Below are positions 2,992 to 23,273 of a DNA stretch of 38,786 nt, piece by piece. The stretch lies in NCBI GenBank assembly GCA_030656575.1, contig JAUSPO010000056.1:1-38786 (forward strand), written 5' to 3'. The DNA comes from Bacillota bacterium. GTDB taxonomy: Bacteria; Bacillota; Dethiobacteria; DTU022; UBA8154. The position numbers and the translations under genes were made by a program. Under the pieces are notes generated by a model. The model was not told where the DNA came from. It searched no databases and worked only from the letters and a program-made list of their open reading frames with translations. Every line of letters starts with the position of its first letter. The first letter of the stretch is position 1.

Positions 2992-3339
2992 CTAGGTTAA
3001 CATTTCTTCCATATCTTCAGGCTTAAAACCCACAACAAGGCGCTTCCCGTCAGCAAACAGGGGTCTGCGCATGATTTTAGGGTTGTTAGATAACATCTCA
3101 GCAATTTCCTGTTCAGATAATTCCTCTGCATCCTTCTGAAGATCTTTATAATTCTTGCTTTTTTTGTTCACCAGGTATGAAACGGGGAAATCACCCAGAC
3201 TGGCAAGCTTAAAAAGTTCTTCAACATCAGGCGGATTTTTTACAATATCCCGGTAGTTAAATTCCACGTCCTTTTCTGAAAGCCACGCTTTCGCTTTTTT
3301 ACACGTGACTCACGCTGGAAAACAATAAAAATCTGGCAA
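2992..3339 (-). CDS. ArsC/Spx-like thioredoxin-fold selenoprotein (UGA = Sec10)
   Basis: Reading through one in-frame UGA (3310-3312) gives a 115-residue protein beginning MPDFYCFPA-U-VTCKKAKAWL and continuing through FNYRDIV and IMRRPLFADGKRLVVGF to the end. Length and sequence match the ArsC/Spx-like arsenate reductase family, in which the active site is CxxC; here it is UxxC, with Sec replacing the nucleophilic Cys. The only available start upstream is a TTG at 3339, nine bases after AAGGGG and directly after a stop codon in frame. Without Sec decoding, the gene would start at an internal GTG (3267) and lose the catalytic loop, β1 and α1. A hairpin 17 nt after the UGA fits a bacterial SECIS element. 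It is the last gene of an oxidative-stress operon behind superoxide reductase and high-molecular-weight rubredoxin, so a thiol or peroxide redox role is as likely as arsenate reduction. Substrate unknown. Confidence 0.85.
3278..3292 (-). promoter_or_regulatory. Candidate bacterial SECIS hairpin (ArsC-like gene)
   Basis: The mRNA sequence GAAAGC-GUG-GCUUUC folds into a perfect 6-bp stem with a three-base loop starting with G. It begins 17 nt after the UGA and the loop starts at +24, within the window expected for SelB-dependent SECIS elements (loop roughly 16-37 nt downstream, G in the apical loop). Confidence 0.65.
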
Positions 3340-3379
3340 ATCTCACTGCCCCTTTCACTGATGTACTGCTTTTGTTTCT

Positions 3380-4066
3380 TTAATCCTCTTTCTCAAACTC
3401 GTCTTTTCCAACACCACATACGGGACACGTCCAGTCATCAGGCAGATCTTCAAAGGATGTGTTAGGGGGAATATCGTTTTCCGGATCGCCGACTTCAGGG
3501 TCATAAACATATCCACAGGCGGAACATACATATCTATCCATTTTATTTCTCCTTTCTTTCGCATCCGGTGCAAATGAGGCTGCATTCTGAGGGGCACTTC
3601 CTCTTTTCATCTGCTGATAGTAAGCATATGTCATGGGAATACCTTCATTTAAAACCTCCGCACCGGTTAATTCACAGAGAAAAAGATCATGGGTCGAGGC
3701 TTCCATTTCATCAATAACTGCTGCCTCAAGATAAGCTAAAGAAAACTCTGCAATATAGGGCAGTCCACCGCCTGTAAGCATATAATTTACCCCGGCAAAC
3801 TTATCAATATCCCTTCCACTTTTAAAACCAAACCTTCCAATAAGGGATAGGGGAACTTCCTGACTAAGCACAGAGACGGCCAGTCTTTTACTGCTTTTTA
3901 TGAATTCATTTGTCAGGTTTTTTTTATTTATGCTTACTACCAGGGATGCAGGATCACTGGAAATTTGGATCACAGAATTTGCAACCTGGCCATTAAAAGC
4001 ATTATCCTTCATTGAAGTGACGATATATAGCCCATAGCTTAATTTATGCAGCGCCTTACTATTCAA
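3380..4066 (-). CDS. hrb: High-molecular-weight rubredoxin (flavin reductase domain + rubredoxin)
   Basis: A 228-residue two-domain protein. Residues 1 to about 165 resemble the FMN-binding flavin reductase family ([21 protein letters not shown]). The last 55 residues are a rubredoxin with both Cys pairs, [10 protein letters not shown] and [11 protein letters not shown]. This architecture is the high-molecular-weight rubredoxin of acetogens and clostridia, which passes electrons from NADH to flavodiiron proteins in O2 or NO detoxification, and possibly to superoxide reductase. The start is TTG at 4066, seven bases after GGAGG. It lies 38 bases downstream of desulfoferrodoxin in the same operon, which supports the oxidative-stress role. 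No flavodiiron protein gene is in the window. Confidence 0.92.
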
Positions 4067-4104: not shown

Positions 4105-4479
4105 TTATGCACTCCAGAGTCCATGAAGATTACAATACGCTCTCACTGCAGCATTTTCTCCCACATCATTAAAGTCCCACTGCGGCTTCTCGCCGGGCTT
4201 TAGAAACTTCCTCTGGCTTTTAAGATCATCAATAACCTCTACCCACTCGATATAGTGCTTCTCCTCCATGGGGTGTTCGGCACTACCAACCTTTACTGTT
4301 ACTTTGGTCCCCTCTTTTTCGGCAACTGGCACATGCTTTTCTTTGGATGCATCAACAGTATTTTCTTTCATGAGTACCATTGGCTTATTGCAGCAGACCA
4401 GCTCCCCTTTTCCCGTGTGGAGAACTTCAACAATATTTCCGCATACTTCGCACTTGTAAATTTCTTTTAGTCCAGTCAT
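4105..4479 (-). CDS. dfx: Desulfoferrodoxin (superoxide reductase)
   Basis: A 124-residue protein of typical length for two-iron superoxide reductase. The N-terminal desulforedoxin-like domain has the Cys ligands (YKCEVCGNI and VCCNKP). The C-terminal domain has the catalytic iron ligands: His in KHVPV, two His in [15 protein letters not shown], and Cys and His in AYCNLHGLW. It reduces superoxide to hydrogen peroxide in the cytoplasm without releasing O2, with rubredoxin as electron donor. The gene for a rubredoxin-containing protein follows at once. Start ATG with GGAG nine bases upstream. Confidence 0.95.
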
Positions 4480-22991: not shown

Positions 22992-23015
22992 CATCAATTA
23001 GACCATCCCCTCCTG

Positions 23016-23147
23016 ACGCCTACGAGGTTAGCTGACGGGTTCGGGTCAGAAAGGATAACCCTACTTAAGCAAAAGCGTTTATTATACCGCTTATGCTTAA
23101 GATTCACCCCAAAAAAATGGTTCCCCCGCTCCAAATGAATTCGGCGT
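23016..23147 (-). promoter_or_regulatory. ydaO-type cyclic di-AMP riboswitch
   Basis: Read on the minus strand, the closing stem ACGCC (23147-23143) pairs with GGCGT (23020-23016). Inside are the family's hallmark stretches: GAGCGGGGGAACC, GGGGTGAATC, a variable stem CTTAAGCATAAGCG / CGCTTTTGCTTAAG, and near the 3' end CCCGTCAGCTAACCTCG. These match the ydaO/yuaA consensus as I know it, and the aptamer looks complete. Such riboswitches usually control potassium transporters, osmolyte uptake or cell wall hydrolases. Here the next gene downstream is acn, 380 bases away with its own promoter, and the 5' half overlaps the coding end of a broken toxin gene. Confidence 0.85.
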
Positions 23148-23273
23148 TACTTCAATTGTCCTGAGCTTGTCCTCCGCCTGGGTTCTGACCTGTGCTAAAA
23201 AGCGAGTGTGCTGCACGAGCATTTCTTCTGCTCTTTCCGAAAAAATGACATGATACCGTTTATCTGCGCTGCT
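23097..23273 (-). pseudogene. Truncated RelE/ParE-type toxin
   Basis: Residues 1 to about 40 (MSSADKRYHVIFSERAEEML, then VQHTRFLAQV) match the start of ParE/RelE-family toxins, normally about 95 residues. After LRTIEVTPNS the frame runs into the riboswitch aptamer and stops at 58 residues, so the C-terminal catalytic half is missing. The ATG overlaps the antitoxin's stop by 14 bases. Probably inactive. Confidence 0.7.

Follow-up and report, generated by a model that had tools for sequence, protein, structure and literature searches.

The window (the whole 38,786-nt stretch of DNA that was analysed) carries on its reverse strand a gene for a small selenocysteine (Sec)-containing protein of the ArsC/Spx fold (Table 1). 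With UGA translated as Sec, the frame reads LPDFYCFPAUVTCKKAKAWLSEKDVEF...MLT, contains a single in-frame UGA and ends at a TAG stop codon. The initial annotation had placed this UGA in place of the first Cys of a CxxC motif, and translation of the 115-residue product (UGA at codon 10) and 54 homologs with UGA at the same place agree with it. The TTG start codon (3337–3339) proposed there is preceded, 9 nt upstream, by the probable ribosome binding site GAAAGGGG, and orthologs start with ATG, GTG or TTG at the same codon. Pfam ArsC matches residues 5–113 (E = 1.8e-20). Translation table 11 yields only a 91-codon GTG ORF (2992–3267), the truncated product that had been expected of standard annotation; standard ORF calling cuts such proteins down to a fragment lacking the active site. 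Genes for desulfoferrodoxin, a flavin reductase-rubredoxin fusion and the Sec protein follow one another in this order on one strand, with gaps of approximately 40 bp. The sole Rfam match in the window is a c-di-AMP (ydaO/yuaA) riboswitch at 23003–23156 on the reverse strand (106 bits).

Table 1. Features of the selenoprotein locus, in coordinates of the window.
Feature	Position	Strand	Evidence
Sec-containing ArsC/Spx-fold protein gene, 115 aa, TTG start, UGA at codon 10	2992..3339	-	translation, Pfam, orthologs, AF2 model
UGA codon, selenocysteine 10, aligned with Spx Cys10	3310..3312	-	TGA in 54 distinct homologs, TGC in L099
Cys13, invariant, partner of Sec10	3301..3303	-	
Cys6	3322..3324	-	invariant in 54/54 Sec proteins, not in Spx
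SECIS-type hairpin GAAAGC-GUG-GCUUUC, 17 nt after UGA	3278..3292	-	stem conservation, codon shuffles
Probable ribosome binding site GAAAGGGG	3349..3356	-	sequence
Flavin reductase-rubredoxin fusion, 40 bp upstream	3380..4066	-	Pfam Flavin_Reduct 1.4e-30, Rubredoxin 1.7e-23
Desulfoferrodoxin (superoxide reductase), 38 bp upstream of fusion	4105..4479	-	TIGR00320 1.2e-56, over cut-off

Relatives were collected by scanning genome contigs. The scan with the single protein gave no matches; an alignment-based scan gave 335 relatives, of which 80 were kept. With duplicates removed, the set comprises 54 TGA genes and 20 TGC/TGT genes. All 54 distinct TGA genes have the UGA at exactly codon 10, with homology to the window protein (approximately 36–61% identity) running unbroken on both sides of it, as had been noted from the window sequence. 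Among 71 genomes of the same order, 22 others contain an ortholog (47–61% identity), and in each the match spans exactly one TGA, always at codon 10. The contig scan added Sec genes from Syntrophomonadaceae, Pelotomaculum, other Desulfotomaculaceae and Dethiobacter, as well as from MAGs labelled Atribacteria and Sumerlaeota; the majority of the relatives are metagenome-assembled genomes, and the Sec members occur mostly in anaerobic Bacillota. Cys is encoded at codon 10 in one ortholog inside the Sec clade (L099, TGC) and in 19 outer homologs, including homologs from Bacilli and Clostridia. L123 (6001–6339) has UGA at the same codon within an otherwise Cys-type ArsC-related clade, which may represent a separate Cys/Sec change, and the number of such changes is only rough because the tree has few columns. 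Two isolated cases have interrupted frames: the ortholog in a low-completeness genome (L047) is frameshifted in an A-run and one copy in L051 is interrupted by TAA. Both may be due to decay or assembly errors.

Insertion of Sec requires dedicated machinery, and selB (391 bits), tRNA-Sec (selC, 72.7 bits) and selD (375 bits, with an in-frame TGA of its own) were identified in the source genome. The selA gene is split over the ends of contigs C169 and C146 with a small gap between them. A second, weaker SelA-like protein (C98:30643-31848, L023; 269 bits against a cut-off of 267.9), whose match runs across a TAG, is probably a paralog beside another ORF.

The hairpin GAAAGC-GUG-GCUUUC lies exactly where the initial annotation had placed it, 17 nt downstream of the UGA, and its GUG loop contains the G expected of a bacterial SECIS element. 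The full 6-bp stem is kept in 43 of the 54 Sec genes and missing from the other 11, whereas none of the 20 Cys homologs has it; in L099, with TGC, three of the six pairs are left. As a control, codons were shuffled 1000 times within each gene, retaining protein and codon usage, which gave full stems in a mean of 2.6 genes and a maximum of 8. Codon choice within the hairpin is nearly frozen (numbered from the UGA, Ala8 is GCG and Leu10 is CTT, each in 49/54 genes), whereas flanking codons are free (codon 3 is TGT in 28 and TGC in 26; codon 5 is AAA in 34 and AAG in 19), so that the synonymous constraint is restricted to hairpin codons. The shuffles leave relatedness in; we consider this contrast, seen inside single genes, the stronger argument. 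A paired change was also seen in four sequences of alignment A2, where C is replaced by T in the codon after CTT and the partner G is A; the control by pair counts is limited in that three of the six stem pairs are invariant. In isolation the 45-nt RNA of the window folds preferentially into a longer helix (-10.6 kcal/mol) rather than the short hairpin, therefore the case for the hairpin is one of conservation and not of minimum-energy fold. Single-sequence folding (z-scores -2.2 to +0.9) is a weak test here and the synonymous constraint is decisive. The reverse strand of the hairpin fits a terminator-like pattern; conservation across relatives nevertheless appears better explained by a SECIS-type hairpin. 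In five homologs (L097, L110, L113, L123 and L130) the standard stem is absent. The first four have a possible GCCAN-GGC-NUGGC hairpin near the same place, read by eye and partly forced by the protein sequence, which single-sequence folding missed for L110 and L097.

Could the UGA be a real stop in a pseudogene, or a sequencing error, with the downstream GTG ORF as a product or debris? Default annotation does report only those 91 codons, and the two interrupted relatives, one frameshifted and one with TAA, would fit gene decay. Against this, the same UGA is found in 54 distinct genes with the active site conserved upstream of it, selABCD are present, and the hairpin is constrained in Sec genes and missing in Cys homologs. 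We regard this explanation as extremely improbable and in practice refuted by the conservation of the UGA across relatives, and set frameshift readings low. The initial annotation had named two observations that would count against a selenoprotein, namely a genome lacking selABCD and close relatives with an early frameshift instead of a U/C column. All four genes are present, and codon 10 is a column of U (54 genes) or Cys (L099 and the outer homologs). Four independent lines of evidence thus agree (conservation, sel machinery, SECIS hairpin and U/C column) and confirm computationally that the UGA at codon 10 is read as Sec, as had been proposed.

To place the protein within its superfamily, we compared it with solved structures and family models. 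The AlphaFold (AF2) model has a pLDDT of 92.7 and TM-scores of 0.90–0.91 against Spx structures and 0.90 against the ArsC-related protein 3gkx from B. fragilis. The best match for a profile of 23 members among solved structures was Spx 3l78 (97.8 bits); the same profile gave 92 bits for B. subtilis Spx, gapless over 1–112, and 34 bits for plasmid ArsC. Sec10 and Cys13 align with Spx Cys10 and Cys13. U10 and C13 are invariant, and R92 is found in 52/52 members that have a residue letter there. The window protein scores 97.3 bits with TIGR01617 (Spx/MgsR; cut-off 75.05), for which L097 falls just short at 74.9 bits, and 48 bits with the arsenate reductase model TIGR00014 (cut-off 106). It is below cut-off for the Spx models NF002459, NF009885 and NF009210 (90, 75 and 74 bits against 123, 152 and 159) and for NF041106 (36.9 bits against 85), for which L099, L123, L112 and L097 reach 22–35 bits. 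No match to NF041106 was found in 299 genomes of the phylum in a search run without a positive control. The ArsC/Spx-like label first given to the protein therefore stands for the fold and can be refined: the protein is closer to Spx/MgsR than to arsenate reductase, with TIGR01617 passed and TIGR00014 failed.

The gene neighbourhood points to oxidative defence. In L056 a Fur/PerR-type regulator and superoxide reductase precede the Sec gene, with a divergent rubrerythrin, and L055 has a Fur/PerR-type regulator and rubrerythrin nearby. In L103 a Fur-type regulator lies further upstream, followed by the flavin reductase-rubredoxin fusion, a Sec-peroxiredoxin and the Sec gene. A Sec-peroxiredoxin is encoded directly upstream in 15 of the 24 same-order genomes that have the Sec gene (G002–G006, G008, G010, G011, G021, G022, G030, G032, G041, G048 and G050). 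By this computational evidence, the context of the Sec gene is anaerobic oxidative defence. The Syntrophomonas-type homologs (L102, L112, L114–L118) have another neighbourhood, several with an MBL-fold gene and carA. Their neighbours are not oxidative-stress genes, and six of them (L102, L112, L114, L115, L116 and L118) are beside AmmeMemoRadiSam-like genes.

Each of the 35 peroxiredoxins that were found has a single TGA. The usual resolving-Cys motif of peroxiredoxins is GEVCPxxW, and the 23 aligned sequences all lack this C-terminal Cys, having mostly GEPTPAGW or GEVMPSGW. Because the usual resolving Cys is absent, the Sec-peroxiredoxin needs an outside reductant, for which the adjacent Sec/Cys thioredoxin-fold protein would be a natural candidate. 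AhpC/TSA peroxiredoxins of this kind, with the motif DFTFVU-PTE and an invariant Cys ten residues before the Sec, were seen in most of L030–L046, L090, L103, L109 and L154–L161, often upstream of the Sec gene. The genome of the window gave no Sec-peroxiredoxin match at E<=1e-30, and the partner there must therefore differ.

We conclude that the gene encodes a genuine selenoprotein. For its function, the reading we favour, and think reasonably probable, is a selenol-thiol oxidoreductase by which strict anaerobes recycle oxidised partners as a defence against oxidative stress. Ribosomes equipped with SelB and tRNA-Sec read the codon-10 UGA as Sec under the direction of the hairpin that closely follows it, and the protein made is a one-domain ArsC/Spx-fold (thioredoxin-like) protein with a C6-x3-U10-x2-C13 active site. 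For the catalytic cycle we infer that Sec10 would attack the oxidised partner, the mixed selenosulfide would be resolved by Cys13 (perhaps Cys6), and a cellular thiol or a rubredoxin/thioredoxin system would re-reduce the protein. In many relatives this partner is likely to be the Sec-peroxiredoxin encoded directly upstream. The protein probably contributes to the survival of oxygen-sensitive bacteria under oxidative stress.

A redox switch, in which an Spx-like protein binds RNA polymerase alpha and alters transcription on oxidation of Sec10-Cys13, seems unlikely. It would fit the nearest solved relatives being Spx (a gapless alignment at 97.8 bits, compared with 34 bits for plasmid ArsC), the superposition of Sec10/Cys13 on Spx Cys10/Cys13, the conserved R92, and the finding of no other Spx in the source genome. 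The alpha-CTD of this genome also retains the SYNCLK stretch that, we assume, holds Y263 in B. subtilis. The contact of Spx to the RNA polymerase alpha-CTD is G52 (PMC2801614), and this position is T, E, S or K in most of the 54 Sec proteins; R60, required for activation, is conserved in only 16 of them, the Spx C-terminal tail is missing, and among tested members TIGR01617 is the only Spx model whose cut-off was reached. The related proposal that Sec replaces the sensor Cys10 of an Spx-type regulator, giving a faster oxidant sensor tied to superoxide/peroxide defence genes, strikes us as quite unlikely. The fold would also suit a selenium-containing arsenate reductase, Sec forms of ArsC occur in metagenomes, and R92-P93 aligns with R94-P95 of plasmid ArsC, which we take to be catalytic. 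We nevertheless set this reading low, as improbable, because the TIGR00014 score is less than half its cut-off, position 105, presumably that of the third catalytic Arg (R107), is Phe in 51/54 Sec proteins, and no arsenic genes were found next to this locus, either in the window or in the relatives inspected.

The favoured oxidoreductase belongs to a type of selenoprotein that is not new, since UxxC forms are already catalogued. As the initial annotation stated, ArsC-like selenoproteins feature in metagenomic surveys: the 2008 GOS survey lists "Arsenate reductase 2" (cd03032, UxxC, 42 sequences; PMC2398784). Of the 119 prokaryotic selenoprotein families in an inventory from 2026, one is ArsC UxxS (TIGR00014) and another is an arsenate reductase-like UxxC family (NF041106). 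What appears to be new is the Bacillota subfamily and its operon context. In the available literature we did not find the recurring oxidative-stress context described, although Haft and Tolstoy 2025 may mention it. ArsC-like UxxC selenoproteins have thus been listed since 2008 without, as far as we found, a function or setting. The subfamily described here supplies a setting, through repeated linkage in strict anaerobes to a Fur/PerR-type regulator, to superoxide reductase and, in the largest number of cases, to a Sec-peroxiredoxin, and this linkage opens a direct test of two selenoproteins acting in series.

Spx of B. subtilis and S. mutans (TIGR01617/NF002459) shares with the window protein the fold, core length, redox residues 10/13 and R92-P93. 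The window protein differs in having Sec for Cys10 and the extra invariant Cys6, which was missing from the Spx sequences compared, and its subfamily lacks G52, varies at R60, has no C-terminal tail and occurs in another gene context. The arsenate reductase-like UxxC selenoprotein (NF041106; GOS "Arsenate reductase 2", cd03032, which we take to be the Spx subfamily of ArsC) has the ArsC superfamily and UxxC in common with it, but the window protein and the other tested members are far under the NF041106 cut-off. The UxxS selenoprotein arsenate reductase of the Sargasso Sea/GOS data (TIGR00014) likewise has the ArsC fold and Sec at the catalytic position, whereas the window protein is UxxC and far under the TIGR00014 cut-off. 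A precedent for the arrangement, two selenoproteins in tandem with one reducing the other, is that of Clostridium oremlandii, where a selenoprotein glutaredoxin reduces a selenoprotein MsrA (Kim 2011, as cited in PMC4333827 and PMC9312934); the glutaredoxin belongs to another protein family, and the Spx-like protein would have the Sec-peroxiredoxin as its putative partner.
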